NCBI GenBank assembly: GCA_945877115.1
Contig: CAMCQR010000014.1
Coordinates: 1 to 39,382 of the forward strand
Direction: 5' to 3'
Length of the DNA: 39,382 nt
Source: Synechococcus sp. UW140
GTDB taxonomy: Bacteria > Cyanobacteriota > Cyanobacteriia > PCC-6307 > Cyanobiaceae
Part shown: piece by piece, positions 3,955 through 21,707 of the stretch
How positions within the stretch are numbered: the first letter of the stretch is position 1
How the letters are laid out: each line of letters begins with the position of its first letter
The notes under the pieces: model-generated
The model's input: the letters and a program-made list of their open reading frames with translations, nothing else
Told to the model about the DNA's origin: nothing
The model's database searches: none
Made by a program: the position numbers and the translations under genes

Positions 3955-5181
3955 TCACGACCACCGGCGCCGATGCATCTCCTCGGGGTCATAGAGCCGC
4001 ACCTGCCGCTCCAGATCGAAGCGTCGCGGCGGGCCCTTGAAGCTGCGGGGATCGTTGCCGACGCCAGCCAGATAGGCCCAGTTGCCGGTGTTGAGGGCCG
4101 GCTGGGCGTCGATCAGCCACCATTCGAAAAAGCGGGCGCCCCAGGTCCAGGGCAGATGCAATTCATTGATGAAATGGGACGCGACCCACTGGCGGCCCCG
4201 GTTGGAGAGATAGCCAGTGCTCAGCAGTTCGTTGAGCTGGGCGTCGATCAGGAGGTGGCCGCTGCGGCCCCGGCACCAGCGCTCAAACAGGGGTCGATCT
4301 TCGCTCCATTCGATCTGGCGGTTCTGCAATCCACCCGGGGCCCCGAAGCTGGCCCCATGGCGTTGGGCGGTCCAGAGGAAGAATTCGCGCCAGAGCAGCT
4401 CCTGCTTCATCCATTCGGAGCCGTCATCGGCGCCGCGGCGGGCTTCGTAATCGAGCACGGTCTGCCAGATGCGCCGCACCGATAGCGATCCGAGGGCCAG
4501 ATAGGGGGAGAACTTGGAGGAGAACTCCGTTCCCACCAGGCCATTGCGGCGAGCCTTGTAGTGGCGCAATCCGTCCGAGTCCAGGCAGTAGTGCCCCAAC
4601 CTGGCCAGGCCGCTGGCTTCATCGCCCACGAAGGGAAAGGCGCTGCGGGGATCGGGGAGGATGTGTTTCGCTGCAGCATCCGCCTGCGGATCCGCCTCCA
4701 GCCAGCCCCGGGGCCCCTCCAGCCGTAACCCCCCCAGGTCCTCCAGATCCGGTACCGGCAGGGGCGGCACCGGCGCCCGCCCCAGGCCCCGGCGGAACTC
4801 CCCAAACACCCTTGGGAAGGTTTCCTGCGCCAGCGGCCAATCGTCAAACAGCCGGCTCTCCTGGCCGTGCAGAACCACCTGCGGGCGCACCCGGGGAGCC
4901 AGCAGTTCCAGCGCCGCCGCCGTGGTGTGCTGGGGAAAGTGGAGCAGGGGAATGGCTGCGGCCGCCAAGCGCGTGCGCAGACAGGCCAGGGCCTGGGCCT
5001 CCAATCGCCTTTGGTGGGGCCCCCGCAGGCGCTGGTCCGGTGGCCGGCAGGCCAGCACGATCAGTTTTCCCTGGCCGGGGCTCTGGTGGCGGGCTAGAGC
5101 CACGGCCCGGTGCAGGGCGGGCTGGTCATCCAGGCGCAGCTGGCCCTCCAGGGCCAGCGCCACCACAAAGGTTGCGCTCAT
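3955..5181 (-). CDS. Cryptochrome-DASH / photolyase family flavoprotein
   Basis: 408 residues. The N-terminal part is an alpha/beta photolyase-type domain, somewhat short for the family. The C-terminal FAD-binding domain is well conserved: KFSPYLALGSLSVR, ELLWREFFLW, NRQIEWSEDRPLFERWCRGR, LSTGYLSNRGRQWVASHF and GNWAYLAGVGNDP. The NRQIEW segment and the LIDAQPALNTGNWAY region are more like Cry-DASH than class I CPD photolyases. Cry-DASH proteins repair CPD lesions in single-stranded or looped DNA using blue light and may also act as photoreceptors. The ATG at 5181 fits the family N-terminus. It lies 28 bases downstream of the chlI fragment on the same strand. Confidence 0.88.
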   Translation of the reverse strand: MSATFVVALALEGQLRLDDQPALHRAVALARHQSPGQGKLIVLACRPPDQRLRGPHQRRLEAQALACLRTRLAAAAIPLLHFPQHTTAAALELLAPRVRPQVVLHGQESRLFDDWPLAQETFPRVFGEFRRGLGRAPVPPLPVPDLEDLGGLRLEGPRGWLEADPQADAAAKHILPDPRSAFPFVGDEASGLARLGHYCLDSDGLRHYKARRNGLVGTEFSSKFSPYLALGSLSVRRIWQTVLDYEARRGADDGSEWMKQELLWREFFLWTAQRHGASFGAPGGLQNRQIEWSEDRPLFERWCRGRSGHLLIDAQLNELLSTGYLSNRGRQWVASHFINELHLPWTWGARFFEWWLIDAQPALNTGNWAYLAGVGNDPRSFKGPPRRFDLERQVRLYDPEEMHRRRWS

Positions 5182-5209
5182 CGGGCCCCCAGGGGCCAGG
5201 GCTCCAGCC

Positions 5210-5413
5210 TCAATTGGCCAGCGCCAACTGGAAGCCGCGGCGGTCGCTGGGTTCGGGCCGCTCGAACACCTGGCAGAACACCTTCACAACCCGATCGCCG
5301 GAATCGATCGTTTCGAGGGGATCCTTGCGCAGGCGGTGGCAGGCAGCCCGCCTAGATGCGGATCTGCAGGCCGTCGTCAATGGAGATCTGGGGCAGTTGC
5401 AGTTGCTGGCCAT
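5210..5413 (-). pseudogene. chlI: Stray 3' fragment of chlI in a 67-codon frame
   Basis: From about 5346 down to the stop at 5210 this strand encodes HRLRKDPLETIDSGDRVVKV and then FCQVFERPEPSDRRGFQLAL. This is the last 42 or so codons of ChlI, whose intact gene lies at 21708-22796. The two align codon for codon back from the stop. By eye the inner 90 bases differ at about six positions and the last 39 bases at about fourteen, so the copy is not recent. Upstream of 5346 the frame continues into unrelated sequence to an ATG at 5413, with AGGAG about eight bases before it, so a short chimeric peptide could be made. In another frame 5413-5350 ends with LPQISIDDGLQIRI and a stop, perhaps the tail of another lost gene. 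Confidence 0.8.
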
Positions 5414-5431: not shown

Positions 5432-5459
5432 GCTCGAGACAATTGTAACCAGCTCGAGC
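5432..5459 (-). terminator. Stem-loop just downstream of the giant gene
   Basis: GCTCGAG (5432-5438) pairs with CTCGAGC (5453-5459) around a 14-base loop that contains the palindrome ACAATTGT. It lies 18 bases after the giant gene's stop on the minus strand. No T-run follows, so it could be a weak terminator, an mRNA-stabilising hairpin or a regulatory site. Confidence 0.3.
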
Positions 5460-5476
5460 GTCGATGCCGATGTTGT

Positions 5477-8400
5477 TCAGAACAGCGCCACGGAGACATT
5501 GTTGAGGCGGACGATCAGATCATTGAAGTCGCCGTCGCTGCGGCCACCCGCTACCGAAATGTCCTCAATCCCAAGAGCCGGGTTGTTGGGGCTGTTGCTC
5601 AGGCTTACCATCTGGGTGGCACCGCCCGGGTTGGCGGCGGCGAAGGAGGAGAAGATCTTGGTTTCATCTCCGTTCTGCAGGAGCAACAGGCCGTAGCGCT
5701 CGCGGGTGTCGAGCGGGAGGGAGTTGAAGGTGGCGGAAGCCCCGAAGGCGGGCAAGGTGGCGGCATCGAGCAGCAGGCCCTCATCCTTGGAGCGGGCCAG
5801 GGCCGCCTGCAGATACCCGGTATCGCCAGGATTGAGACCTTCGATGTTGCCGGTGATCGAATCCACCGTGTAAAAACCGAGGCTGTTGGCATAGCCAGTC
5901 AGGCGCTGCACCTCCACGGCGGCCGGGGCGGGCAGGAGGGCGGGGGCGGTGCCGGTGGCCTGCCAGAAGACACCGGTGACGCCGCCGTTGAAGGTGGCGG
6001 TGACCTGGTTGCCATTGACCGCCAGGTTGAGCAGGGCTAGGGCGGCGCCGTTCTGGCTGGCGGTGGGGGTCCAGCTCTGGCCGCTGAGGTTCTGCGCCGC
6101 CGTGATCGCGCGGCTGCCAATGCCCCGGGCCTCGGTGGATTGCCAGCCGCCCGTGATGTTGTCGTCGTTGGCGTTGGCGGGATTGAGGCTGCCGCTGGTG
6201 CCGCCGCTGGCGCCGCTGATCAGGGTGAGGTTGCCGGTATTGGATTGAAGCCCGAAGGTCACCAGACCGGAGCCGCTGTCGGCGCGCCAGCTGGTGAGGG
6301 GGGCGTCTGTCGTGAAGCGCACCGTGTTGGCGTTGAGCAGCTGAACGGAGTTCTGCCAGGTCAGGTCTGGTCCAAGCAGGGAGACCTGGGGTTGCCCGGA
6401 TCCAGCATCAAGGTTGAGGTGCAGGCGGGCGCCGACCTGTTGATTGGTGCGGCCATCCAGATCCAGGGGCAGGGTGTCCAGATGATTGACAGGGATTGTG
6501 AAGTCGCCATCGTGTTGGAAGTCGGCCAGGGTCACTTCTCTGGCCGCTGAGACTTTGGTGGCGTCGGCGCTATCGCGGGTGCTGATGTGCAGTGTGAGAG
6601 TGTTGCCATGGTTGCCATTCGTATCAGCGCGGAGTTGGAGTTCGCCGCCCTCGAGGCTGAAGCCACTCAACACGACAGGCTCGGAGGGTCTGATCACGAG
6701 GTTCAGATCCTGCGTGTAGTGCAGATGATCGACAGGCTGAAAGCTCAGACTCGCCCGTTCTGAACGGCCTTCAGCGATTCCATCTTTGAGCGTTGGCACC
6801 GTGACAGTTTTGCTGATCTCTCCGGGCTTGAGCAATAGGAGACCAGCCACAGCGGCGCAGTCGATGCCCAGACTGACGGTGCCGTTATCGGAACTAGAAC
6901 TGTAAAGAATGGCCAGAGGAGTATTAATAGATCCGTTGCGTTTGATCTCGTAGCGCAGGCTCTCGCCCTCGGTCGCCGCCAGCGCCTTGACGGTGTAAGC
7001 GTCAGTTTGGATGGAATGGGAGCCGGCTTGCTGCTTGAGCCAGGTGAGATAGGTGTCCGCAGGATCAGGGCTGCCAATGGCCGCCATGGCGGCCGGTGCG
7101 CTCGGAGCTACGGATCGCGCTGTCAAGGCTACCGAGGAAGTGGCGGCCGTGCTGACGTGGGTGACCAGCCAGGAGTTTTCACCCTCGCTATTCACGGCCG
7201 TCTGGGAGGTAGGCACCAGCACGAACACCACCCCAGCGCTGTCGCTGGCCGTGAAGCCATTCCAGCGGGCACCGCCATAGACGATGTCGGCCTTGGCATT
7301 GCGGCTGAAATCGGAGCTCAGCTGGATCGAGTCCTGGGCATCCGTCACCAGGAATAGCACCTGATCGTCGTTGAGATTTTCGACGCCGAGGCGATCAAAG
7401 CTGAGGAGATTGGCGCCGTAATCCACACTGCTGATCAACTCCACCGATTTCAATCGATTGCCAGGGCGGATGTAATACGTGGCGCTATTGGATCCAGAGC
7501 TTTCGGCCGTAAAGCTCCAGTTCTGGTTGGCTGGGCCCTGGAGTACGAGAGAATCGATTCCGGCTCCAGCATCAATGCGCAGGAAGGCGTTGTCGATCAG
7601 GCTGATCTGGTCGTCGCCGTTGCCGGCAAGGATCACATCCTTGCCGCCGCGCCCTTCGATGCGGTCCGAGCCCGCAATGGCGGCGATGACATCGGCCAAG
7701 GGTGTGCCCAGCAGCGTGTCGGCACTGGGGGTGCCGATCTGATTGGCGATGTCGAGGAAGTCGCCACCGAAGAGGGCATATTGATTGGCCAGGCCTTCAG
7801 ATGGATTGCTGGGATCGCTGATCAGGATGTCCTTGTAGCCATCGGCATTGATGTCGAGGTTGCCATCAATCGAGTAGCCGGCCAGGGAAACCTGGTTGGC
7901 GGTTGGGGATGTGCTATTGACGGCTTCGATCACCAGATTCTTGGTGTTGTCGATGCCACCAACATCCTCGGTGAAGGGAGACGTGAAATAGAGCTGCGAT
8001 TGGCTGACAAACGGCGCGAGGGTAGTAAAGACAGGGATATAGATTGGACTGTTCCAGTCGTCGTAGGCACCTCCCACAGCAAGGGTGGAGCCGCCAGAGA
8101 AGCCGTTCACCAGGTAGAGCTGGCTGGAGTTGGCGGTCAGGCCTAGGGTGGGCGTGTATTCGTCCTTGGGGGCCTCGCCTAAGTTGGTCGCATAGGTCGA
8201 CCAGTTGGCGCCCGGATCCGAGGACACAGCCTGGGCTGTTGTCAGGGTGTAACTGCTGGAGTTGTAGTCCCCTGAATAGAAGGCAAGCACCGTCTTGCCC
8301 TGGAAGCGGCTGGCGGCGAAGGACGTGCCACTCAGCGCTGAAGTGCTGCCAGCCGAGTTGACCGACTGAAGGGCAGTGGCTGATCCGCTGAAACCGTTAC

Positions 8401-11400
8401 CGCTGAGGTTGGAACCCCAGGACGAGCTGCTGCTGGGATCTGTGGAGTAGGAGACGTAGATTCCTGTGCCGGTGACGCCATTGGTATTGAGGGAATAGAG
8501 AGCCAGCCGATTGCCCTCATTCACCAATTTACCGACGCCCTGCAGCTGGCCTGGATTGTAGTTTGTCCAGCTGCTTGCCTGCGTAAGGTTGGATCCAAGG
8601 TCTGCCCAGGCAATCCAGATCTGATTGTCACCCGACACACCCTCATCACCATCATTATAGCATATAAAAATCTTATTGTCGTAGATCGCTGCGCTTTCAA
8701 CTGGCGGGCTATAGTTCTTGACGGCTTCTTGGATTCCACCGACATTAACCGTAGTCCAACTACTGGAGGATGGGACTCCGTAGGAGAGCTGGATACCTCC
8801 ACCATTTGTGAAAGCGATATAGGTAATGCCGCTGGGGTCTACTGTAGCCGTTACGAAACTAATGCCACTGGTGCTGATGTCGTTGAGGTAAACGCTCGAA
8901 GTGGAAATTGATGTGAGACTGGCTGGCGGCTTGTAGCTCTGAATCGGCTCAAACCACACCTGCAGGGAGGGAATATAATTGTCGCTGTAGGGGTAGAGAT
9001 AGGGATTCAGGGGCGCACGCAGGTTGTCGAGGCTGAAGCTGCTGTCTGCCACCTTGAACAAGCTGCCATCCACCAGTACGGTCTGAATCCACTGGTCGGT
9101 CGTTTCAGCGGGGCTGAGGGCCAGCATCACATCATCAAAGCCGTTGCCATTGACATCGCCCGCCGCCCGGATGCTCCAGATGGCATAGGCAAGGGCTCCA
9201 TCACCCGTGTACACGTTGGCCAGGCCATCGGCAGCGAGGTAGTCGGTGTAGCCATCGCCATTGAGATCGCCGAAGCCGCCTAGCGTCTGCAGGCTGGGCG
9301 TGCCGGCAGCGTCAGCGGTGAGCGTGTTGGCAATGCTGGCACGGGCGCCAGTAAACAGCTGCTGCAGGCTGCTTGGAGTGCTGGCCGTGGCCGTGAGATC
9401 GGCCGTGCTCAGGGAGGTGCCGGACGCACTGCCAGCCGTGCTGCTGATCTGATAGGTGGAACCAGCCTGGATGCCATTGAGGCGGATGCTGTTGTCGCCA
9501 GCGAGCGCTGCGAATGGGGTGAAGCTGGGAGCTGTTGCCTGCTGCGGGTAGAGAGAGGCGATCTGCACGCTCTGCTGCGTGGCTGTAGAGAGATTATTGG
9601 CCTTGATGTCGCCGGGTGTTTTCGCCCCCAGCAGGAAGCGCACCCCGGTGACGAGCTCGGTGGTGCTGTCGCTGAAATCTGCCCTGGCTGCATAGGCCAC
9701 GTTGTTGGCCGTGATGACCAGATCGTCGTAACCATCGCCGTTGCTATCGCCCACAGCACTGAGACTCGATCCGGTCTGGGCGCTGCTGAGCACCTGGGCG
9801 TCCTGATCATTCAACTGTACATTGATCGCGTAATTACTGGCATTGCCGGCGATCAGCAGGGGATTCTGCGTATCGGCTGTGATCAGCGGCGTATAGCCCA
9901 TGCTGGAGGACAGGGCCGTTGCATCCACCAGGGCCAGCCAATCCGTCACGTCGGCATTGCTGATCTGGATAGCCACCTGATCGGGTTGGCTGGTGTCGGT
10001 GTAGGTGAGCACCAGGCCCGGGCTGCTGCTGGTGAGGCCCACACCTCGTTGCAGCACGGGGTCGATGTCAGAAGGGGTGTCGAGCAGAGTCCAGATCGGC
10101 GAGCCACCGTTGGCGACGCTATCCGTGGCTGTGGTGAGGTAGATGCTGTTGCTGGGCGTGCCGCTGGTGCCGCCCTGATAGGCGATATAGGTTTGGCCGT
10201 TGTAGCGGGTGAGGGCGAGATTGCTGCTAGCTGTTTGGCTGGTACCGCTGCCGTATTCAACGGACGTGGTTGTCCAGTTCTTTGGGGCACCGGAGGGTGA
10301 GCTTGAGTAACTCTTGAGCAGGCGATTTGAGGGGTCGTTGGAGGTGAAGTAAACGGCAAGATTGTCGCCCTCGACGATCATCGCGGCAGCGGTGGCCGAC
10401 TGGCCGGGAACCTGGTACGGACCGTACCAATAATTGTTTCCCTCATACATATAGACGATGTTGAGATCGTTGCTGCCAGCGGCGACGTAGCAGATGTATA
10501 GATAGGGATAGTCGCCTCCCATATAGGCGATTGATGGCGCTGTATAGGTGCCGATATTGGTGGGTAATCCCTGCCAGTTGTTCCAGGTTTGCCCGTTGTT
10601 GCTACTGCTGTTCCAGTAGATGTGATCATCCGTGCCGCGCACGGCCATGTACACCGTGTCGCCGTTGCGGGTCAGCGACGGCGGCGACAGGGCGGCACCA
10701 CCAGCCACGTCCTGCCAGGCACCGGCAGTGAGGCCGCCGATGCCGTAATCGGTTCCAGCCCGCTGGCTGAGGAGCGAGCCGCCGTTGCCATCGGGCAGTT
10801 GCACGGTGGTGTCCATCCAGGTGAGCCAGGGCACCGCATCGCTGCTGGTCACGGCCTGAATACCCACCGCCAAACTTTCGTTAACCGTGCCCAGCAGCAG
10901 CAGCTCGTTGACCACCACCGGCGCACTGCCGAGGCTGGAGCTAACTCCCGCCAGGGTGCTGCTCTGCCATTGGGGGTTGGCGTTGATCTTCCAGGTGGGC
11001 GCATCGCTGACGGTCTGCAGCAGTTGCAGCTGGTTCACCACGATCTGCTGGTTGCCATCGGTGTAGGTGAGCGCCAGGCCGGTGCCGGTGGCGGCCAGGC
11101 CCGGAGCGTTCATGGGCACGGTACCCGTCAGCGCCGGGGAGTTTTGCTGTTGCCAGAGCACACCGCCCGCGTCGGGGATGAGCAGGGCGATGGCCTCGAG
11201 CCCGGAGCCACTGCCATTGGCCTGGCCGTAGGCCAGCACGGGGGTGCCGTTGAGCAGGGTGCCGGCCAGGGCCGTGGCACTGAGGATCGGCGTGCCGGCG
11301 GCATCGCTGCTGAGGGTCGAGGCCGGCGACCAGCCCGTGGCCGCTGTTGGCGTGGTGCTGGTGGCCGAGGTGATTGTTTGGCTGGTCTGATCCACCCAGT

Positions 11401-14400
11401 AGAGAGCCAGTCCATCGCCCTCATTGAGCAGCAGCGGCGCCAGAGCGGTGGCCGGGGTGGTGGTGGTGGAGCTGGCGGTAGCGAGCTGGATCGCCATGGG
11501 TGCCGACCACTGGTCCAGGCTGCTGGTGCTGGGATCCCAGGAGCTGAGGCTGATGCCCTGGGAGCTGTTAGTGAAGGCGAGATAGAGCTTGCCCTCGTAA
11601 GAGGCGAGCGACACAGGCAGCGACGAGCTGATGTCCGGCTGACCGGTACTGATGTCCACCCAGTTCGCCCAGCTGTTGCCGGAATCGCCGCTGCGGCTGA
11701 ACCAGAGGGTGTCGACGTTGTACCCCTTGACCATCGCATAGATGGTGTCGCCAACGGCCAGGAAGCAGGGGGCTACATCGCTGAGGCCATACTCCACGTC
11801 CTGGCTGGGGGGCGTCAGGCCCGCCGGCGCCAGCAGCCCGAAGCCCGAAGCCAGGGGCAGGGTTTCGCTGGGGCGGCCGTAGAGAATGCCGGTGGTGCTG
11901 CCGGCACCCTGGGAAGCGGTGCTGAGGTTCTTGGGCAGGAACAACGCCAGATCATCACAGCCATCGGCGTTGAGATCGCCAGCCGCGACAATCTGGGTGC
12001 CGTTGTCGACGTAGAAGCTGAAATCGTTGTAGAGGTAATCCGCCAGAATCGCCTCGCTGGAGCCCCCCAATTCCACCCGCACCGCCGTGAGGTAGTCGCC
12101 GGGGGTGACGGAATAGAAGTCGCCATAGCCATCGCCGTTGAAGTCGCCGATGGAGCGCAGGGAGGCTTGGGTGGTGGTGGCCAGGCCCTCCAGGAGGAAG
12201 CCCTGATTGCTGGCTAGTTTGTTGAGCTGGAAGTTGCTGATGTCCTGGAGGTAAGCCTTGCCCCAGGTGAGATAGCCATTGCCGGCCCCGCGGCCGCCGA
12301 GCAGGAGGTCATTGATGCCATCGCCGTTGACATCATTGGCATTGAAGCTGCCCAGGCCCACATTCTCCTGGCTGGCGCTGCCGGATTCGGTGAGGATGTT
12401 GAGGTTTTTGCTGCCTTTGTTGTTGGAGATCGTGCCGATGCCGCCGGCCGAAACGCTGCCGGTGTAGGGGCCATTGGCGGGATCTGTTGCATCGCCGAGC
12501 ACGTCATCGGCCCCGAAGACCAGATAGGCGACCCCCATGCCCGCTTGGGCGTTATAGGCATTGATCAGCAGATCGTTGTAGCCGCTGTAGGAGGGATTGC
12601 CTGGATCGGCATTGACATCACCGGTGCTGACCAGGCCATTGCCGAAGTGGTCGTTGACGTTCTGGCCATACAAGGTGAGGCCGGCGGACAGGTGGGCGAG
12701 ATATTGGTTGGCCCCGGAACTGGTCTGGCCCAGGGCTGTTGCCGGCAGCGTGCCGGGATTGATGAAGTAGGCAGCCCCGGAACCGCCGCTGGTGTCGGCA
12801 CCGATCACCAGGGTGTTGGCGTTGGTGTTGTTGAGATCAGCAAGGGCAACACTGCTGCCAAAGCCGCTGGAGCCGGTGTTCCAGGGGGAGGCGCCATAGA
12901 ACACGGATTGCTGCTCGGCGCTGCTGGAGCCGCTGCTGAACCTGGTGTAATACACCGCCCCGATTTCATTGGCGGTGAGGCTCTGATCGTAAAAGGTGGT
13001 GGCCTGCACGATCGGATCGGTCATCAGCGCCTTGAGGCGCTGCATATAAGCCGTTGCTTCTTTGGCATTGCCTTCGGCCGTGTTGGCGATGGCGGTATAG
13101 CTTTTGCTGCCGGCGGGGAGATTGATGCTGTTGGCGGCTGTTGTGGGCAGCTGCACCTTGAGCAGGGCACCATCGCCATAGGGATTGCTGGCGGTGCTGG
13201 AGCTGAGATTGGTGGCTTGTTCCTGCTCGTTCTGGAGCTCCTTGTTGCCGCTGTATTGCAGGCCCGCCACCAGGCCCGGTGCGCCGATCGCCAGTTCCAC
13301 CGTGGCGGCGCCGCCGTTGCTGCCGGCGGTGGTGCTGGCGGCCAGGGAGCTGCCCAGCCGCTCGCCCCAGTAGCTGGTGATCTCCTGGCCGGCGGCATTG
13401 AGGCCCACCAGGCTGCCGCCTATGCCCGTTTGGTAGAGCGTCAGCGCGGCTGTGCCGCCCGCGGCGGGGGGCCCGTAGCGGTAGACCGCGCCGACGGGAA
13501 CGGCAGATTTGGTATTGCCACTCACCACCTCCTTGAGATAGGTGGGGGCGCCGACATAGAGGGCGGTGCCGTCAAAGGCGAGGGCCGAGCCAAACTGGCT
13601 GTTTTCAGCATCGCTGCCGGCCGCCACCGCACCCGCCAGGTCGGCGGTCAACACCGTGACCACGCCCGCACCGAGGCCATCGGGATTGTTGAGGTCGAGG
13701 GTCTCGGGATTGCTGTTGAGATTTTGCTGAATCCAACTGCCGGAAATGATGTAAACGCTGCCGCCGCTGTTGGTATCGGGGGCGGCGATGATCAGTTCAT
13801 CACAGCCATCGCCATTCAGGTCGGCCACCAGCATCACGCGGCCCAGTTGACCGCCCCAGCCCTCGGTGGGATCGGCCGCAATCAGCAGGCCGCCGCTGCT
13901 GCTCTGCGACTTGGCAGCCTGCAGCAGCGGCAGGTTGGGTGCATCGGCATTGAAGTTGCTGCGCGCCAGGGCATTGAGCCAGGTACTGGGGCTCTGGGCA
14001 ACGGGCGGATTGCCGCTGCTGGGGGTTTCGGGATAGAGGCCGGTGTATTGAATCCACACCCGACCGGCGGGGTTGGTGCCGGCGGTGGGCGTGAACGGCT
14101 GGGAGATGGCCAGCCAGCCGGCGGCCGTGCCCGTAGACCCGGAGAGGGTGGAGGTGTAATGCCCGGCCACCTCGGAGAGCCCGAAGCCCTTGCTGGTGTC
14201 GGCCGGGTTCTGCTGGGAGTGGATCACCTCGCCGCTGTCGATGTACTGCAGCTGATAGGGAGCCGCCTCGAGAATGTCGGCGCTGACGATCTGCTGGGGG
14301 TAGAGGGCTTTGCTGGTGAAGCTGCTTGAATCGGCATCGGCGCTGATCCGGGGCCCCGACAGTGGCACCACGGCATTGATACCGCCGGCACTGAGTTGGG

Positions 14401-17400
14401 CCGAAGAAAAGGTGGTGTTGTCGTTGGTGGCGGGATTGAAGAAGTTGAGCGCGTAGCTGTAGAGGGCTGCACTGTCGCTCAGCGGGCTCTTCGGCACCAC
14501 CAGGCTCACCGACGGAGTGTTGTTGAGGAAGGTGTAATGCAGGTCTGTCGTGGTAGCCCGGGGCTGGCGGCTCAGCACGGTCTGCTCGCCGATCAGCACC
14601 TGGCTGGCATCGAGGCTGTAGGTGCTGATGATGGTGCTGGGATTGCTGCTGCTCAGCAGCTTCACCGTCACCGTTTGCAGCTGCTGTTTGGCGGGGTTGA
14701 AGCCCGCTTTGCTCCAGTCGCTGGACGTGATCTGCAACAGATCGGCGTCCTGCAGGGAGGTGGTGCGGCTGCCGCTGGTCTGGGTGGCCACCGGCGCGCT
14801 GACGGGATTGAGCAGCTGGGCCTTGCTCCAGCTGGCGGTTGGCTCGTCGTAGGTGGTGTAGAAGGTGGCATTTTCAGCCCCATTCGGATCAACGGAGCGG
14901 GCTTTCCAGTGCAGGTTCACCGCACCGGTGTCCACCCCTGGTGCCGCCGACAGGCCGCCGATGTTCACCCCCAGGCTCGCGAGCAGACCAACGGCATCGG
15001 CGCCGCCCATCACCGGCCAATTGCCGCTGGGATTGGCTGGCGTGCTGGGATAAACGCCGGAGAGGGATTGTTGATAGAGCGCCAGTTCGTCGATGGCGCC
15101 TCCATTGTTGAGATAGATCAGCAGGGCATCCTGGGCTTCTGTTGCCGGGCTGAACACATCACTGAGGGCCGTCTGGCCCGCCAGCTGGTTGTCGATATAA
15201 AGGCTGGCCGTGCCAGTGCTGAGCGGTACATCGACAATCTGCTGATTCACCTCCTGGGTTTCGATGTCTGGCAGGTAGGTGGCCACGATGTAATGCCAGG
15301 CGCCGTCGTTGATGCTCAGCGCTGTTGTGCCATCGGTGGTGGTGATCGTGCTGAGCAGGCTGGTGTTGCTGCCCACATCGAAAACCACCTGGCCCTCGCC
15401 ATTCACCGACACGGCGGTGGAATAGGTGAGCTCAAAATCGAGGGCAAGGCCGCCATAGTTTTCCTGCTCGTACTTGGGCGGGATGCTGCCGCTGGCCGCC
15501 GAGCTGCTGGGGTTGAGGCCGAAGTTGACCTTGGCCTTGCCTGCTTTCTGCTGGTAGTCCCAGAGGTTCTGGAACAGGGTCTGCAGGTTGTTGCTGCCGC
15601 TCCAGGTGCTGCTGGCGGTGGTGACTAGGCCGCCATTCATCAAGGCTTGATCGGTGCTGACGGCGATGGTGTTGAGACTGGAATTCGGTGCCCCGTTCAG
15701 CAGGGCGGTATCGAATTGCAGGCTGGTGGCGGGCACCTCGGCGATCACACCAGCGGCGCTGCCGCTGGTGCCGATCAAGGTATCGGCGGCCAGGCCGTAG
15801 CTGGCCAGAAACTCATTCACCCCCGCCAGCTCGGTGCCGGCCTGGAGGTTGGTGATCTGCAGGGCGTTGCTGTAGAGGCCGCTGCCGCCGTTGCCCCCGA
15901 GGGCGGTGGTGTAGGCGCCGGCGGCCACCACGGCCCAGGCGTAGCCATAGATCGCACTGCTGCCGGTGCCGGTGGGGATGCTGGCGATCAGGCCGCGCCC
16001 GAGGGCGTCCTGATAGCTGATTTGATCGACGACGAATTCGGAGCTCAACAGCCAGCCCGTGGGCAGCTGGCCCGTGGTGATCGAGGGTTGGCCGAGGGCA
16101 AACAGGCCGGCGCCGTTGGCATTGCCGGTTTGCGGCACGCGGGCCCAGAACTCGATCGTGTAGGGGCTGCGCGCCACCCCGGTGCTGGTGGGGGTGGTGC
16201 CAGCGGGCACAGCCGCCTGCGGCACGAAGGTGCTGAGGCTGCCGACGCCGGTGCTGAGCACGCCGCTGCCATCGATGTTTTCAATCGCCGCATCGCTATT
16301 GACCCCCAGGGCCCCGGCAACGTTGAAATCGAGACCGGTGTCAGAAGCGCTGGTCACCGCCGCTGGCGAGTCGGCGATGCTGCCGATGTTGTAGTTGCCG
16401 ACGCCGCTCTGCCCCTGGTTCATCTGCAGATAGATGTAGGGGTCGGAGGTGAGCACGGCCTGCTCGTAGGGCACGGCCACGTTCTGGCTCCAGAAGATGG
16501 CGGGCTCCTGGCTGAGCGTGCCGTCCGCTTGGGCGATCGCCATGGTGCTGATGCTGAGGTCCTCGACGCCGATACCCACGGCATCGGGGGAGGCCCAGGT
16601 GATCGTCTGCGCTGTCTGGAAGCTCTTGGTGGTGGGATCAAACAGGGCCGCTTTGATCACCGTGGGGGCGTCGCCGGCAGCCGCTGCGCCCGAGAGGGAG
16701 GCCTGGCCCTTGACGGCTGCGATCGAGGTTTCGCTCCAGGTGAGCAGCACCTGGGGGGCATCGGTCGTACTGCCGGGCACCAGCGAGATGTCCAGGTCGT
16801 CGATGATGTTGTTGCCGGCGGCGATGTAGTTGAGGGGATTGGTCTGCCAGCCGGCGGTGGTGTGGATCGAAAAGGCGATCTGCTGCTTACTGAAATAATT
16901 GTCGTAGAAGTTCTGATAGTCTTCGGCGCCGCTGCTGCCGATGTTGGGTACGGGCCGATCGATCACCTCCAGCCAGGCCACCAGATCGCCGCCTTCGATG
17001 TTGCCGAAACTGCTGCCTGTCGGCAGTTTGGTGGCAACGGGCAGGCGCGCTAGGGAGAACTGTTGTTCCTCGGCTTTCCAGGAGAGCGAGGGGCTCGGAT
17101 CCACCGTGCGACTGACCCCGGCTTGCCAGGACTGGGAGCCTGAATTCCACTGAATGGCATTGAGGTAATAGGTATTGAGGTTGTTGTTGTTGTCGCTTTG
17201 CCCATCCACAAACACCACACGGCTGCCAAGGGCATTGCCTTTCTGGGAGGCGTACAGGGGCGCCTGATCAGTATTGCCTTCGGCGATGTAAACACCACTG
17301 GTGGTGGGCGCCGCCAACGCTCCGGGCACGGCGCGCTCCGTGAAGAAGCTGTGCTCATCAATGAAGTTGTTGTACACCAGGCTGGTGGGAGTCAGCGTCA

Positions 17401-20400
17401 GCACCGCTGGCTGGCTTGGCGTTACCCCAGTTGGCAGATCAAGCGCCAGGCTGTAGCTGGGGCTGCCGCTGGCGGGCGGGGTGCAATAGAAGGGGCTATC
17501 CAGGCTCACCTTGACGATGGCGCCATTGATCAGGGTCACCGTGGCGGTGGCCGGGCTGCCTGGCACCAGGCTGGTGACGGCTGTGTTGCCCTGGTACACG
17601 GTGTAGGCCACCCCCGTATAGCTGTAGGGGCTTTGGTTGCCCGCTGGCAGCGCTTTGGGCTGCTGGCTGAGGGCATCCATGGGCTGGTAGCCGCTGCCGC
17701 CATTGGCCACATTCACGCTCTGAATCACGGCGGCGGCCTGGCTGTTCCAGATGGTGGTGCTGTTGGTGGAGCTGAGAATGATCGTGGGAGGGGTGGCCTG
17801 GCCCTTGCCGATGGCCCCGCTGTTGACGATGGACGTGCCGGTGCTGGCGTTGACGCTGACCAGATCCGGCACCACCACCACCGTGGCGCTGCTGTTGGCG
17901 TATTCGGGCAGATAGCCATAGGTGCCGGCCCGGGTGATGACCAGGCTGGTGATCTTGCCGCCGGCCACCACCAGCGTGGCTTCAGCGAGGTCGTCCTCGC
18001 CGCCGGGGGTGACGCCGAGCAGGCGAACGTTGGTGTAGGTGCCATCGTTCAAGCCCGTGCCCCCATTGCCCTGTTGGAGGGTGGCGCTGGTTTGCATCAA
18101 GTTGGCGCTTGAGGCGAAGAGTTGCTGGAGGCGGAGCGTCTGGGTGTTCTGGCCGGTGAGCAGGTGCACGCCGGTGGGCGGCGCCCAGTAGAGGTTGCTG
18201 CCCTGGCTGGGTGCATAGACGATGCTGCCGCCACTGCCATTGGTTGGGGCTGGAGCTGCGGCGCCAACGGAATTGCCGCTGTTGCTGGCTGGGGCGAGGG
18301 GGGCTTGGCTGGTCCTGGCGGTGGAGTCTGGGCTGGTCGGGGTGCCGACGCTGCCGTAGGTGTTGCTGATGGCAAACACCGGCTGATAGGCCCCGAAGGC
18401 ACCAATAGCCACCTGAAACTCGAACGAATCGGAGCTGCGATTGCCGGCCTGATTGGTGAAGGTGTAGTTGTACTTATTGATGAAGCTGCCGCGCAGGTTG
18501 AAGACGCTGTCAACCTTGCCAACGAGCTCCAGGTTTGTGGTGTTGAAGATGCCGCGGTTCCACTGATAATCGAGTCCTGCGGAATCCTGGATCTGGCTCG
18601 CCCTGGTGGCGCTGAGAATCGGATTGATCGCAGCCGTGGTCGTGCCGACTACGGCATTGATTAAATTTTTTCCAAATGATACTTTATGCTGGGGAGTGTT
18701 AAACTGGAAGTCTGATTTAAGCGAGTCTAAGTATATATCGTCATCTTCTGTTTCTGTCAATCCGATAGCGATCGCAGGTGCGACAATCTGCAGGTAGGTT
18801 TCGGAATCGCCGATGCCGCCAAATACCTTGCCGCTGAGGCCCAAGGCGCCTGCTGGTAAGGCATCCACGCCGTTGCCAATGGAGGTGATCCACTGGTAAC
18901 CCAGGGCGTTGCTGGCGCTGAAATTGAGAGTGTAAACCGTAGGTATGTTAGACCTGTAATTGACCCAGCTATGGAGATGTTCGAATCCGACATCAAGGGA
19001 GACAGATTCTCTCGCTTCGAGAAGGCTCGGATCGTGATTTCCTTTTTGATTATAGACTATTTTGCTGCCAATGGAGCCAGCTGCCATTACGCGCCATTGG
19101 TTGTGGTTGATAATCGTTTTTGTCTCTAACGTACTTTTGTCAACTATCTTGCTAACCCTTATTGCCAAATTAGGCGAACCGAACGTGTCTCGTTCGTGGA
19201 GGGTCGACGTACCGGCTTCGGTGACACCAATGGCCAGCTTTGCCAAGCTGCGGAAGGCCAGGCTTCCTTCTGCATTGGAGAGGCCGAAAAAGCCGTTCCA
19301 GCGCATGGCCAGGCGATAATGGTCGCCGCCGAACAAGCTGGCGGAATAGGCTCGATCATTGATGCTGGTGGCTCCGGGCAGGCTGGTGGTTGTGGAGCCA
19401 AGTAGGCCAATGCTTTCCGGGTTCACGGCCTCAGTGGCGAGGAGCGATTCCCCTGAGGCGTCGGATGCGAAGGATGCGCTACGTACGATATTGGGCTCTA
19501 CATTGGTGTCCTCGAATGCTTTTTCGAGCTCAGACCCAGGGTCAAGATCACTGATAAGCGAGTCGCCGAGTACGGATCCGCGGAAGGAGCTTTCGTCGTT
19601 GGCCTCGATGTATGATTTTACACCCTTGGGTTCTGTCACCATCGGCAATTGCAGCTCCCAGCGGGCCACTTCCTCTATAAATCCCGCCTGCACGGTGGCG
19701 GGATTGCTGCTGTTGCCCACCGGCCAGGAGCCGGCCGTGGTGCTGGGCGCTGCCGCCGCCGGTGCCTCGCTGGCGCCCAGGGTTTGGGGTTCGCTGCTGG
19801 CCCTGGCGGTGCTGGAGCCGCCGGCCTCCACGGCGTTGGCGGCGAACAGGGAGGCTTTGGAGAGGCCAGGGCCGCCGCCCACGGCCCCATCGGCCAGGCC
19901 GGGCGCCGGTGCCGGCGGCTGGGCGGAGCTCACGAGCGTGGCGATGCTGGTCCACGTGGGGCTGCTGGTGGCGCTCGCCCTCACAGGGTCGCCCTGCAGC
20001 ACCGGCGCCAGGCCGGCGCCCGGGTTCAGGATCTGAAAGCTGGTGATGTACAGGTCGCTGTCGGGCCGCACCAGGCCGCTGATCGCTTGTTGGGCGGCCT
20101 GCTCCGGGCTGAGGCTGCCGCTTTCGAGGGCATCCAGGTTGGCTGCCAGGCTCTGGATCTCCTGTTGTTTCTGGGTCACCAGGGTGAACTGGCCGTTGGC
20201 GGCGGCCACCAGGCTGAACTCCTTGTCGTTCACCGTGTCGTCGGTGAGCTGCACCGCCTGGCTCCACTGCAGGTCGCCGTTGTCATCCCAGCCACCGAAC
20301 ACCCCATAGATCTCCGCCTGGCTGTCCTGGCCCTTGCGGTAGAGCAGCACAATGCCCGGATCCCAGCTCTGGCCCTGGGCATCCGAGCCGCCTGCTTCGT

Positions 20401-20593
20401 TGGCCCAGAGGTTGTCCAGGTAGGTGGCCTGCACGGCATTGCCGCCCACGGCACCCGGCACCGTCTGGGCCGCCACCCAGCGGCCCGCCTGGCTGTCCCA
20501 CTGGCACTGCAGCAGCTGGCCGTCGTTGGCCAGAAAGCCGTAGGCGGTGCCGTTGGCGTCGTTGACGACCTGGATGCTGCTGGCGGTGGCCAT
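5477..20593 (-). CDS. Giant multidomain predicted surface protein (about 5038 aa)
   Basis: One uninterrupted frame of 15.1 kb. The start chosen is ATG at 20593 (MATASSIQVVND); the frame stays open to 20776, but that stretch does not look like protein. Rough residues: 1-190 a domain of unknown type; 1475-1815 LamG/concanavalin-like (YTIEFWAR, later GAWHYIVATY, ASLYIDNQLAG); 2250-2880 several FG-GAP repeats with DxNxDGxxD calcium loops (DLNGDGCDELIIAA, DVNGDGINDLLLGG); 2945-3095, 3300-3500 and 3910-4160 sialidase-type BNR modules (SRSGDSGNSWANW, SSNNGQTWNNW); more FG-GAP at 3612, 3770, 3807 and 4240; RTX-like repeats 4292-4350 (GRGGKDVILAGNGDD); a Calx-beta-like region 4535-4640; and a DUF4114-type C-terminus 4895-5037 (YGLLLLQNGD, GIEDI, SDGDFNDLIV). 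There is no N-terminal signal peptide. RTX plus DUF4114 suggests type I secretion, but no transporter is in the window. Composition (Ser, Thr, Gly, Ala, Asn rich, few Cys) fits an extracellular calcium-binding protein. Function unknown: adhesion, motility or defence are possibilities. Confidence 0.93.
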   Translation of the reverse strand: MATASSIQVVNDANGTAYGFLANDGQLLQCQWDSQAGRWVAAQTVPGAVGGNAVQATYLDNLWANEAGGSDAQGQSWDPGIVLLYRKGQDSQAEIYGVFGGWDDNGDLQWSQAVQLTDDTVNDKEFSLVAAANGQFTLVTQKQQEIQSLAANLDALESGSLSPEQAAQQAISGLVRPDSDLYITSFQILNPGAGLAPVLQGDPVRASATSSPTWTSIATLVSSAQPPAPAPGLADGAVGGGPGLSKASLFAANAVEAGGSSTARASSEPQTLGASEAPAAAAPSTTAGSWPVGNSSNPATVQAGFIEEVARWELQLPMVTEPKGVKSYIEANDESSFRGSVLGDSLISDLDPGSELEKAFEDTNVEPNIVRSASFASDASGESLLATEAVNPESIGLLGSTTTSLPGATSINDRAYSASLFGGDHYRLAMRWNGFFGLSNAEGSLAFRSLAKLAIGVTEAGTSTLHERDTFGSPNLAIRVSKIVDKSTLETKTIINHNQWRVMAAGSIGSKIVYNQKGNHDPSLLEARESVSLDVGFEHLHSWVNYRSNIPTVYTLNFSASNALGYQWITSIGNGVDALPAGALGLSGKVFGGIGDSETYLQIVAPAIAIGLTETEDDDIYLDSLKSDFQFNTPQHKVSFGKNLINAVVGTTTAAINPILSATRASQIQDSAGLDYQWNRGIFNTTNLELVGKVDSVFNLRGSFINKYNYTFTNQAGNRSSDSFEFQVAIGAFGAYQPVFAISNTYGSVGTPTSPDSTARTSQAPLAPASNSGNSVGAAAPAPTNGSGGSIVYAPSQGSNLYWAPPTGVHLLTGQNTQTLRLQQLFASSANLMQTSATLQQGNGGTGLNDGTYTNVRLLGVTPGGEDDLAEATLVVAGGKITSLVITRAGTYGYLPEYANSSATVVVVPDLVSVNASTGTSIVNSGAIGKGQATPPTIILSSTNSTTIWNSQAAAVIQSVNVANGGSGYQPMDALSQQPKALPAGNQSPYSYTGVAYTVYQGNTAVTSLVPGSPATATVTLINGAIVKVSLDSPFYCTPPASGSPSYSLALDLPTGVTPSQPAVLTLTPTSLVYNNFIDEHSFFTERAVPGALAAPTTSGVYIAEGNTDQAPLYASQKGNALGSRVVFVDGQSDNNNNLNTYYLNAIQWNSGSQSWQAGVSRTVDPSPSLSWKAEEQQFSLARLPVATKLPTGSSFGNIEGGDLVAWLEVIDRPVPNIGSSGAEDYQNFYDNYFSKQQIAFSIHTTAGWQTNPLNYIAAGNNIIDDLDISLVPGSTTDAPQVLLTWSETSIAAVKGQASLSGAAAAGDAPTVIKAALFDPTTKSFQTAQTITWASPDAVGIGVEDLSISTMAIAQADGTLSQEPAIFWSQNVAVPYEQAVLTSDPYIYLQMNQGQSGVGNYNIGSIADSPAAVTSASDTGLDFNVAGALGVNSDAAIENIDGSGVLSTGVGSLSTFVPQAAVPAGTTPTSTGVARSPYTIEFWARVPQTGNANGAGLFALGQPSITTGQLPTGWLLSSEFVVDQISYQDALGRGLIASIPTGTGSSAIYGYAWAVVAAGAYTTALGGNGGSGLYSNALQITNLQAGTELAGVNEFLASYGLAADTLIGTSGSAAGVIAEVPATSLQFDTALLNGAPNSSLNTIAVSTDQALMNGGLVTTASSTWSGSNNLQTLFQNLWDYQQKAGKAKVNFGLNPSSSAASGSIPPKYEQENYGGLALDFELTYSTAVSVNGEGQVVFDVGSNTSLLSTITTTDGTTALSINDGAWHYIVATYLPDIETQEVNQQIVDVPLSTGTASLYIDNQLAGQTALSDVFSPATEAQDALLIYLNNGGAIDELALYQQSLSGVYPSTPANPSGNWPVMGGADAVGLLASLGVNIGGLSAAPGVDTGAVNLHWKARSVDPNGAENATFYTTYDEPTASWSKAQLLNPVSAPVATQTSGSRTTSLQDADLLQITSSDWSKAGFNPAKQQLQTVTVKLLSSSNPSTIISTYSLDASQVLIGEQTVLSRQPRATTTDLHYTFLNNTPSVSLVVPKSPLSDSAALYSYALNFFNPATNDNTTFSSAQLSAGGINAVVPLSGPRISADADSSSFTSKALYPQQIVSADILEAAPYQLQYIDSGEVIHSQQNPADTSKGFGLSEVAGHYTSTLSGSTGTAAGWLAISQPFTPTAGTNPAGRVWIQYTGLYPETPSSGNPPVAQSPSTWLNALARSNFNADAPNLPLLQAAKSQSSSGGLLIAADPTEGWGGQLGRVMLVADLNGDGCDELIIAAPDTNSGGSVYIISGSWIQQNLNSNPETLDLNNPDGLGAGVVTVLTADLAGAVAAGSDAENSQFGSALAFDGTALYVGAPTYLKEVVSGNTKSAVPVGAVYRYGPPAAGGTAALTLYQTGIGGSLVGLNAAGQEITSYWGERLGSSLAASTTAGSNGGAATVELAIGAPGLVAGLQYSGNKELQNEQEQATNLSSSTASNPYGDGALLKVQLPTTAANSINLPAGSKSYTAIANTAEGNAKEATAYMQRLKALMTDPIVQATTFYDQSLTANEIGAVYYTRFSSGSSSAEQQSVFYGASPWNTGSSGFGSSVALADLNNTNANTLVIGADTSGGSGAAYFINPGTLPATALGQTSSGANQYLAHLSAGLTLYGQNVNDHFGNGLVSTGDVNADPGNPSYSGYNDLLINAYNAQAGMGVAYLVFGADDVLGDATDPANGPYTGSVSAGGIGTISNNKGSKNLNILTESGSASQENVGLGSFNANDVNGDGINDLLLGGRGAGNGYLTWGKAYLQDISNFQLNKLASNQGFLLEGLATTTQASLRSIGDFNGDGYGDFYSVTPGDYLTAVRVELGGSSEAILADYLYNDFSFYVDNGTQIVAAGDLNADGCDDLALFLPKNLSTASQGAGSTTGILYGRPSETLPLASGFGLLAPAGLTPPSQDVEYGLSDVAPCFLAVGDTIYAMVKGYNVDTLWFSRSGDSGNSWANWVDISTGQPDISSSLPVSLASYEGKLYLAFTNSSQGISLSSWDPSTSSLDQWSAPMAIQLATASSTTTTPATALAPLLLNEGDGLALYWVDQTSQTITSATSTTPTAATGWSPASTLSSDAAGTPILSATALAGTLLNGTPVLAYGQANGSGSGLEAIALLIPDAGGVLWQQQNSPALTGTVPMNAPGLAATGTGLALTYTDGNQQIVVNQLQLLQTVSDAPTWKINANPQWQSSTLAGVSSSLGSAPVVVNELLLLGTVNESLAVGIQAVTSSDAVPWLTWMDTTVQLPDGNGGSLLSQRAGTDYGIGGLTAGAWQDVAGGAALSPPSLTRNGDTVYMAVRGTDDHIYWNSSSNNGQTWNNWQGLPTNIGTYTAPSIAYMGGDYPYLYICYVAAGSNDLNIVYMYEGNNYWYGPYQVPGQSATAAAMIVEGDNLAVYFTSNDPSNRLLKSYSSSPSGAPKNWTTTSVEYGSGTSQTASSNLALTRYNGQTYIAYQGGTSGTPSNSIYLTTATDSVANGGSPIWTLLDTPSDIDPVLQRGVGLTSSSPGLVLTYTDTSQPDQVAIQISNADVTDWLALVDATALSSSMGYTPLITADTQNPLLIAGNASNYAINVQLNDQDAQVLSSAQTGSSLSAVGDSNGDGYDDLVITANNVAYAARADFSDSTTELVTGVRFLLGAKTPGDIKANNLSTATQQSVQIASLYPQQATAPSFTPFAALAGDNSIRLNGIQAGSTYQISSTAGSASGTSLSTADLTATASTPSSLQQLFTGARASIANTLTADAAGTPSLQTLGGFGDLNGDGYTDYLAADGLANVYTGDGALAYAIWSIRAAGDVNGNGFDDVMLALSPAETTDQWIQTVLVDGSLFKVADSSFSLDNLRAPLNPYLYPYSDNYIPSLQVWFEPIQSYKPPASLTSISTSSVYLNDISTSGISFVTATVDPSGITYIAFTNGGGIQLSYGVPSSSSWTTVNVGGIQEAVKNYSPPVESAAIYDNKIFICYNDGDEGVSGDNQIWIAWADLGSNLTQASSWTNYNPGQLQGVGKLVNEGNRLALYSLNTNGVTGTGIYVSYSTDPSSSSSWGSNLSGNGFSGSATALQSVNSAGSTSALSGTSFAASRFQGKTVLAFYSGDYNSSSYTLTTAQAVSSDPGANWSTYATNLGEAPKDEYTPTLGLTANSSQLYLVNGFSGGSTLAVGGAYDDWNSPIYIPVFTTLAPFVSQSQLYFTSPFTEDVGGIDNTKNLVIEAVNSTSPTANQVSLAGYSIDGNLDINADGYKDILISDPSNPSEGLANQYALFGGDFLDIANQIGTPSADTLLGTPLADVIAAIAGSDRIEGRGGKDVILAGNGDDQISLIDNAFLRIDAGAGIDSLVLQGPANQNWSFTAESSGSNSATYYIRPGNRLKSVELISSVDYGANLLSFDRLGVENLNDDQVLFLVTDAQDSIQLSSDFSRNAKADIVYGGARWNGFTASDSAGVVFVLVPTSQTAVNSEGENSWLVTHVSTAATSSVALTARSVAPSAPAAMAAIGSPDPADTYLTWLKQQAGSHSIQTDAYTVKALAATEGESLRYEIKRNGSINTPLAILYSSSSDNGTVSLGIDCAAVAGLLLLKPGEISKTVTVPTLKDGIAEGRSERASLSFQPVDHLHYTQDLNLVIRPSEPVVLSGFSLEGGELQLRADTNGNHGNTLTLHISTRDSADATKVSAAREVTLADFQHDGDFTIPVNHLDTLPLDLDGRTNQQVGARLHLNLDAGSGQPQVSLLGPDLTWQNSVQLLNANTVRFTTDAPLTSWRADSGSGLVTFGLQSNTGNLTLISGASGGTSGSLNPANANDDNITGGWQSTEARGIGSRAITAAQNLSGQSWTPTASQNGAALALLNLAVNGNQVTATFNGGVTGVFWQATGTAPALLPAPAAVEVQRLTGYANSLGFYTVDSITGNIEGLNPGDTGYLQAALARSKDEGLLLDAATLPAFGASATFNSLPLDTRERYGLLLLQNGDETKIFSSFAAANPGGATQMVSLSNSPNNPALGIEDISVAGGRSDGDFNDLIVRLNNVSVALF
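16533..16540. repeat. HIP1 octamer
   Basis: GCGATCGC, the highly iterated palindrome of many cyanobacteria, inside the giant gene. Confidence 0.6.
18768..18775. repeat. HIP1 octamer
   Basis: GCGATCGC in an AT-richer patch of the giant gene. Confidence 0.6.
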
Positions 20594-20720
20594 GGGGGAA
20601 TCACGGGGGGAAGATTGGTTTAGCTGTGCCCTAGACCGACCACCGTCGCACCCAACTAGGATGGGGGAACAGGCCCATGCGCTGCACAGCACTGATTTTG
20701 TTGCAAGGACCCCATGTTCC

Positions 20721-20744
20721 ACAACCCTCCATTTGAAGGGTTGT
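20721..20744 (-). promoter_or_regulatory. Perfect 8-bp stem-loop between regulator and giant gene
   Basis: ACAACCCT (20721-20728) and AGGGTTGT (20737-20744) form a perfect 8-bp inverted repeat with an 8-base spacer. It lies in the 286-base gap between the LuxR-type gene and the giant gene, 128 bases before the giant gene's ATG. LuxR/NarL regulators bind inverted repeats, so it could be an operator. It could also be a terminator for the regulator, but no T-run follows on either strand. I see no convincing promoter or ribosome binding site in the rest of the gap. Confidence 0.4.
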
Positions 20745-20879
20745 GCTGCCGTGCTGAAGCCCTCCGGTTTTCCCAATCCGGCCTAGGCCGCGTCGGCAAG
20801 GGCGAGGGGGCTCAGAGCTCAGCGGCTGGCCTCTGCCCCCACCGCCCCTGCCAGCTGCCAGTTGAGCGCTAGCGAGCTG

Positions 20880-21584
20880 TCAGCCGTTGCTGCTCAGCAG
20901 CAGGCCCAGTTCCATGGCCCTGCTCACCACCATGGTGCGGTTTTGGGCCCCCAATTTTTGCAGCAGGGAGCGGGTGTACTCCCGCACCGTGCTCTCGGCG
21001 ATTCCCAGCCGTTTGGCGATCTGGCGGTTCGTGTGGCCCTGGGCCAGTTCCCGCAGGGTGTCCTGCTCCCGAGAGGTCAGGCTTGGCACGTGCTGGTTGC
21101 TTTGGGCCTGGAGGCTGCTGAGCAGGGCCGGATCCACGTAGCGATGGCCCCGGGCCACGGAGGCCAGCCCATCGAGCAGGGCGCCGCAGCCGAAGCTGTG
21201 GGTGTGTAGCACTGCCTCCACCCGATCGAGCGGATAGGCGTTGGTCCTGATCCATTCCCTGCGCTCCACCATCAACACCACCACCGGCGGCTGCGGTAGC
21301 TGTTGCAGCTCCTCGATTAGGGCCTCGCCATGGTCGGCGGCGATTGAATCCACCATCACCAGCAGGCAGCGCTGCTGCAGTGAGCTGATCAGGGCGAGCA
21401 CCTCGGCCGGGGTCACGCAGGTGCCCACCAGGCGGTCGTCCACGGAGGCCAGGGCGGCTCGGGCCATCAGGTGCGCTTCCAGGTAGGAACCCGAGGCCCC
21501 CACCAGGGTCCATTGGCGTAATAAGGCATCGATCGCTTCGGTGCGGGTGCGGAAGCCCTCATCCTGCGGATCGAAGCGCGTCAA
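20880..21584 (-). CDS. LuxR/NarL-type transcriptional regulator (orphan, receiver-like N-terminus)
   Basis: 234 residues. The C-terminal 65 residues form a GerE/LuxR helix-turn-helix: SLTSREQDTLRELAQGHTNR, QIAKRLGIAESTVREYTRSL and LQKLGAQNRT. The N-terminal 150 residues resemble a response-regulator receiver. They have a beta strand ending in LLVMVDSI, where the aspartate sits at the phospho-acceptor position, and a VVVLM strand. The paired acidic residues expected near the N-terminus are not evident, so phosphorylation is doubtful. No sensor kinase is nearby. The start is TTG at 21584 with TAAGG-like sequence before it. It lies immediately upstream of the giant gene on the same strand and downstream of chlI (124-base gap), and is a natural candidate to control the giant gene. 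Confidence 0.85.
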   Translation of the reverse strand: MTRFDPQDEGFRTRTEAIDALLRQWTLVGASGSYLEAHLMARAALASVDDRLVGTCVTPAEVLALISSLQQRCLLVMVDSIAADHGEALIEELQQLPQPPVVVLMVERREWIRTNAYPLDRVEAVLHTHSFGCGALLDGLASVARGHRYVDPALLSSLQAQSNQHVPSLTSREQDTLRELAQGHTNRQIAKRLGIAESTVREYTRSLLQKLGAQNRTMVVSRAMELGLLLSSNG

Positions 21585-21707
21585 GCCTTAGGGCCATCGG
21601 TTGATCGTTCTCCAATTCTAGGGATATTTGTGTTCAACTTGGCCATCGGGCTGGCTGAAAACGAACGCCGGCGATTTGTGCTGCCTATTTCGGCGGAATC
21701 TGGGCGC

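Follow-up and report, generated by a model that had tools for sequence, protein, structure and literature searches.

In the window analysed here (the whole stretch of DNA under study, 39,382 nt of Synechococcus sp. UW140), the 3' end of chlI occurs twice, once at the end of the intact gene and once as a fragment on the far side of a giant gene (Table 1). We consider it likely, with a probability of roughly three in four, that a block carrying a LuxR-family regulator gene (luxR) and the giant gene was added by recombination through chlI, that the far end of this block joined inside the resident chlI tail, and that the old tail was stranded there. The old and the new ends of chlI can both be read, so that the polarity of the insertion can be inferred from them.

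Table 1. Positions of the chlI ends, the cargo and its neighbours in the window, and of broken ruvC copies in other genomes (loci as labelled).
Feature	Position	Strand	Basis
Displaced remnant that looks like the native chlI 3' end; roughly the final 46 codons, in frame to a TGA stop	5210..5347	-	Direct repeat; 7/130 differences from the G047 end, all at third positions; 89% identity with G001 across some 155 nt
Decayed upstream chlI piece (chlI nt ~764-817, perhaps to 828 by eye), in another frame and ending in TAG	5353..5411	-	Local alignment; random control
67-codon ORF with ATG and AGGAG-like site, in frame with the chlI tail	5210..5413	-	Translation; visible in the sequence
Tentative relic of a ruvC start, just past the stop of the giant gene	5450..5476	-	Short match to ruvC start; weak
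Intact chlI; body G001-like, last ~13 codons divergent	21708..22796	-	96% (aa) to G001; Pfam Mg_chelatase and AAA_lid_2
Giant gene of ~5100 aa, probable inserted cargo	5477..20776	-	FG-GAP and DUF4114 above cut-off; RTX nonapeptide only below it
LuxR-family regulator (GerE), neighbour of the giant gene	20880..21584	-	Pfam; 64-73% (aa) to the gene in this position in G011, G015, G007 and G043
Photolyase (FAD_binding_7); directly follows chlI in G001 and G047	3955..5181	-	Pfam; 92% (aa) to G047, 80-83% to G001
Broken ruvC, G043	L150 7360-7640		Start joined to end; nearest G010 ruvC (84%), own whole copy 77%
Broken ruvC, G019	L039 14546-14764		First 72 codons, 93% to own
Broken ruvC, G049	L227 3250-3680		Two stops, 88% to own

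A second chlI 3' end beside the photolyase gene

Searching the window for direct repeats (families of at least 40 nt, 11-nt seeds) yielded a 132-nt repeat on the same strand, at 5209-5340 and 21707-21838, whose copies are 84% identical and lie 16,498 nt apart; both of the remaining two families fall within the giant gene. When the strain's own assembly was searched, the second copy was hit with E = 5.7e-37, and these two places were the only matches at E up to 0.001. The repeat of the chlI 3' end 16 kb from chlI is therefore real. The fragment is flanked on one side by the photolyase gene (3955-5181) and on the other by the giant gene, whose stop is at 5477. The sequence-only reading of this DNA had put the match to the end of chlI at about 130 bases, some 85% identical by eye and some 93% in its inner part, estimates that come close to the measured values, since over the inner 90 nt the fragment and intact chlI differ at 6 sites (93%). 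In the last 40 nt they differ at 15 sites, and the longest exact run common to both copies is 26 nt.

Judged by the photolyase, the nearest relatives of the strain are the two genomes that we label G047 and G001. In G001, chlI is whole and is followed directly by the photolyase gene, with no gene (and so no giant gene) between them, while the G047 contig starts inside chlI and continues with photolyase, DUF1003 and META genes, which is the order of the window. Beyond chlI, G001 has only the photolyase in common with the window, not DUF1003 or META. The chlI-photolyase order of a giant-free relative supports the claim that the fragment is the scar of an insertion or recombination next to chlI, with the giant gene as the inserted block. 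A mere chlI fragment beside the photolyase gene of a giant-free relative, which would speak against this claim, is not what G001 has, its chlI being whole; the G047 contig, which begins inside chlI, leaves this point to G001. The latter contig (L142 position 1, G047:C281) starts within about 15 nt of the place that matches the seam of the window's remnant, perhaps at a branch between two strain types.

An artefact of assembly, in which reads of two co-occurring strains (one with chlI next to the giant gene, the other with chlI next to the photolyase gene) were joined in one contig, seems to us quite unlikely. The joint is seen in one draft contig alone, the window being one of the 185 contigs of the assembly, and the start of the G047 contig within about 15 nt (by eye) of the place matching the seam would suit such a join. 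However, the two copies share no exact run longer than 26 nt, so that there is little on which a misjoining could act, and the joint holds a chlI piece whose decay sets it apart from the intact chlI genes observed.

The fragment resembles the resident end of chlI

The fragment ends in PSDRRGFQLALAN, as do the chlI genes of G001 and G047. The chlI ends of these two genomes read QVFERPEPSDRRGFQLALAN, to which the end of the fragment is identical in protein, and that of intact chlI reads QVFERPEPTDSSEFELALAV. At the nucleotide level, the fragment differs from G047 at 7 of 130 sites, with 1 in the last 40, and intact chlI differs from it at 20 of 130, with 16 in the last 40. The change along intact chlI is abrupt: in the comparison with G001, 63 differences in 1050 nt are followed by 15 in the last 39 (Fisher p 1.1e-8), and the differences from G047 are distributed over the codon positions as 5/4/11 (i.e., they are not mostly synonymous). 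The odd end (TDSSEFELALAV) is continuous with the rest of the intact gene; its last 40 nt differ at 11 sites or more from each of the 33 other genomes compared, among which neither a match to this end nor a donor sequence was found. With 1 difference from G047 in the last 40 nt of the fragment against 16 in those of the intact gene, whose end is abruptly odd, it is the fragment that seems to belong to the lineage, and the last ~13 codons of intact chlI (a housekeeping gene) would be the newcomer. The opposite assignment, which made the fragment the end of a foreign chlI, had been put forward in the sequence-only reading and is not supported, given a tail that differs from G047 at 1/40 sites and ends as in both relatives.

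Over the inner 90 nt, where the fragment differs from G047 at 6 sites, as it does from intact chlI, and intact chlI differs from G047 at 4, the counts indicate that the two copies are not simple recent duplicates. A tree of 130 nt grouped the fragment with G001 and G047, at weak support (82/40).

By codon position, the differences between the fragment and G047 are distributed as 0/0/7. With the neutral rate taken from the fourfold identity of the photolyase gene with G047 (86%), about 6 first- or second-position changes would be expected since the split from G047, and none is seen (P about 0.003). That all 7 differences fall on third positions argues against an old event, which had earlier been allowed for; the same pattern would, however, be expected of a fragment under selection. 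Either the insertion would be recent or the fragment would still be selected, and of the two we favour a recent insertion.

This pattern also bears on a history in which the G000/G001/G047 group inherited the block from its ancestor, and recombination between the chlI ends later removed it from G001, perhaps also from G047, restoring the chlI-photolyase order. The two chlI ends are direct repeats, as such a loss would need, and luxR and the giant gene adjoin chlI in other lineages. The fragment would then have been non-coding since before the split, yet it shows none of the approximately 6 first- and second-position changes expected relative to G047, and the C-terminal 1007 aa of the giant protein have no match in G001 or G047 (genomes 83% and 78% complete). 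We regard an ancestral block as unlikely and prefer its recent addition through chlI.

A decayed chlI piece and a short reading frame at the far joint

Beyond the tail, the remnant includes an upstream piece (5353-5411) that reads GQQLQLPQISIDDGLQIRI-stop in a frame other than that of the chlI tail, a TCG codon of chlI now being TAG. About 120-125 nt of chlI are absent between this piece and the 3' end; in the chlI gene of G009, the pieces matching the two parts of the remnant lie 121 nt apart. MAFFT misplaced the upstream piece, which was hence judged by local alignment. It scored 14-29 against nine chlI genes, with a top score of 29 against 32 chlI genes, whereas random 73-mers drawn from the loci compared scored at most 23 (395 of 400 were kept, the 5 scoring above 45 being taken as chlI itself and removed) and none of the 395 reached 25. 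Its best foreign match among 42 genomes was the collinear place in G009 chlI (E 1.6e-5), followed by unrelated genes (E 1e-4) with a score of 25 in the same alignment scheme, so that its chlI origin rests also on its place and frame. The piece scores higher against an outgroup chlI (29) than against that of the window (22) or of G001 (20), and it is more decayed than the chlI tail, for which reasons two separate events may have contributed to the remnant; the piece may have arrived with the block or may mark an earlier event.

The span to which the sequence-only reading had drawn attention, 5210-5413, is exactly that of a 67-codon ORF whose ATG lies inside the upstream piece and which runs into the chlI tail. 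This ORF is probably fortuitous. Were it translated, the remnant would be alive as a free ChlI C-terminal segment affecting the magnesium chelatase ring, and the scar would be a small gene born by island insertion. The ATG, the AGGAG-like site and a chlI part without first- or second-position change relative to G047 would fit this idea, which we judge very improbable.

At the seam, a possible CTGC-like microhomology can be seen by eye, as can a foreign-looking chlI piece. We propose the following course, in which the direction of the transfer, a joint driven by homology at chlI and a joint through short homology at the opposite end of the block are inferred. Initially, the photolyase gene would have come next after chlI in the lineage, as it does in G001. 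A related cyanobacterium would then have supplied DNA in which a chlI end was followed by luxR and the gene of a giant surface protein. This DNA would have recombined with the resident chlI where the two shared sequence, so that the resident gene kept its body and acquired the new end. At its other end, the DNA would have joined inside the resident chlI tail rather than replacing it, and the old tail, stranded between the giant gene and the photolyase gene, would have begun to decay. The stretch resembling a ruvC start after the giant gene (5450-5476) would fit a donor in which ruvC followed the giant gene; this match is weak, with 0 (G015), 0 (G007), 1 (G019), 1 (G043) and 5 (G011) of 200 shuffles matching as well. 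A clean single crossover of a circular donor was also considered, since the foreign-looking upstream piece and the native tail would fit it; as only two sites of the tail (1005 and 1014) are outgroup-like and the upstream piece is more decayed, it is kept only as a possible form of the course proposed above.

A displaced gene end could also be left by an integrase-driven island that used the chlI 3' end as its attachment site and restored the end of the gene, an explanation that we hold to be highly unlikely. Such an element would account for a target at a gene end and for the old end on the far side. However, no integrase or transposase Pfam model was matched above cut-off in the frames scanned (the giant frame, luxR and 'orf214', for which see below), the tails differ at 15/40 sites, and the repeats are 84% identical with a longest exact run of 26 nt, in which a short att core could conceivably lie. 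The luxR gene gave one match below cut-off to a resolvase-type helix-turn-helix model, and no tRNA was found in the window.

The cargo appears to have a history of its own

The giant protein of the window is 71% identical over 4985 residues to that of G011, whose gene lies between chlI and ruvC. The giants of G011 and G015 are only 55% identical over 1975 aa (best segment), although these genomes are close relatives (97% aa identity for ChlI and 94% for DUF3370, against 88% and 64% between the window and G011). The history of the cargo is thus discordant with that of the host, the G011 giant being nearer to that of the window than to that of G015, as judged only from pairwise identities of five giants. 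Fourfold identity with G011 reaches 74% in the middle part of the giant gene, compared with 63-66% in the DUF3370 gene, the beta-lactamase-like gene and the photolyase gene; the middle part is hardly above chlI (70-73% with G011 and G015, the G011 value being mixed with a paralogue) and the C-terminal part of the giant gene stands at 65%, so that this measure favours transfer only partly. The block does not stand out in base composition (62.5% G+C, with flanks of 59.9 and 65.8%).

The chlI-luxR intergenic region of the window has no similarity to that of G011, G015 or G007 and was dropped as a marker of the donor. 'orf214' (20869-21513), a 214-aa ATG ORF that overlaps luxR in another frame, was rejected as a gene: its apparent fourfold sites are 90-92% conserved and its protein is ~54% identical, its matches in G011, G015, G007 and G043 contain a stop, and the other frame (20880-21584) is that of the LuxR regulator. 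This regulator is kept between chlI and the giant genes in four other genomes and is a candidate regulator of the giant gene.

Cargo at the chlI-ruvC border

The block of luxR and the giant gene belongs to a hotspot between chlI and ruvC, where giant genes and other cargo seem to have landed repeatedly in the genus. The distance between the two genes was taken in the 26 genomes, out of a genus set of 42, that have both on one contig (in the remaining 16 the genes are on different contigs, a hit is lacking, or they were not searched for both). Measured between match edges, with rows typed by hand, it is 10-100 nt in 15 genomes, 413 nt in 1 and 1.9-22 kb in 10. In 4 of the 10 expanded loci (G011, G015, G019 and G043) a giant gene ends next to ruvC, and likewise in G007 over two contigs; luxR and the giant gene both stand between chlI and ruvC in G011, G015 and G043, as they do in G007 judging from two contigs. 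Cargo of other kinds includes, in G049, a mechanosensitive channel and a solute-binding protein, in G019 a dehydrogenase and a hydrolase, and in G053 a glycosyltransferase. On its far side, the block of the window borders on the photolyase gene, ruvC being at the edge of another contig (C82).

In three genomes (G043, G019 and G049), the cargo is flanked by two ruvC copies, a broken one towards chlI and a whole one on the opposite side (Table 1). Broken copies of chlI or ruvC thus appear to mark exchanges at this border. For chlI, no clear second 3' end was found beyond the window in 40 of the 42 genus genomes (all but G042 and G043) at E up to 0.001, several of which are incomplete and three of which (G005, G017 and G055) gave no clear chlI; the exception is a 36-nt match in G020 (C59). 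The broken ruvC copies mirror the chlI scar of the window, and a further weak partial ruvC match lies on another contig in G040.

A photolyase-like gene adjoins ruvC head to head in G001 (L224 8746-11133) and G047 (L225 208-2358), and a relative of this gene is found a few kb from the photolyase gene in 6 of 20 named relatives' loci. These arrangements, cut short by contig ends, hint that a photolyase segment may have moved into the chlI-ruvC border in the G001/G047 group.

Comparison with known systems

The event is of a known kind and of ordinary mechanism, with an unusually readable polarity, at a locus (chlI-ruvC) for which no paper describing an island site was found in the open-access literature. 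Giant-gene regions have been described as replacement flexible genomic islands of aquatic bacteria that are swapped through their flanks (PMC4033161, PMC5644125), and it has been proposed that they are swapped since they change phage sensitivity (PMC4033161). In the parts of these papers on which we draw, a giant gene occupies a fixed place between core genes with a content that varies among relatives, homologous recombination takes place in the flanks, and substitution is raised in the bordering gene. Likewise, giant genes stand here between the same core neighbours, chlI and ruvC, in several genomes, recombination in the flank would have occurred through chlI, and substitution in this bordering gene rises from 63/1050 to 15/39 in its last nucleotides. 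Unlike in those islands as presented there, the bordering gene has left its old end behind as a scar, the comparison is between species, and the change in the chlI end is not mostly synonymous, whereas the published substitution peaks are.

Displaced 3' ends are also known from the T6SS immunity arrays of V. cholerae, for which homology-facilitated illegitimate recombination has been proposed (PMC5361080). The portion of that report considered here describes one homologous anchor, an incoming module that takes the 3' side and old 3' sequence behind the new module, as would be the case for chlI; the present locus differs in that the displaced sequence is a chlI tail with no evident function and the cargo is a giant gene with luxR. 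Finally, additive transfer by recombination in flanking regions has been surveyed in Aeromonas (PMC11375855), where, in the sections used for this comparison, a new gene enters between neighbours common to donor and recipient, as we propose for the block. In that survey the events are classified in bulk, whereas here the scar at one border is read.
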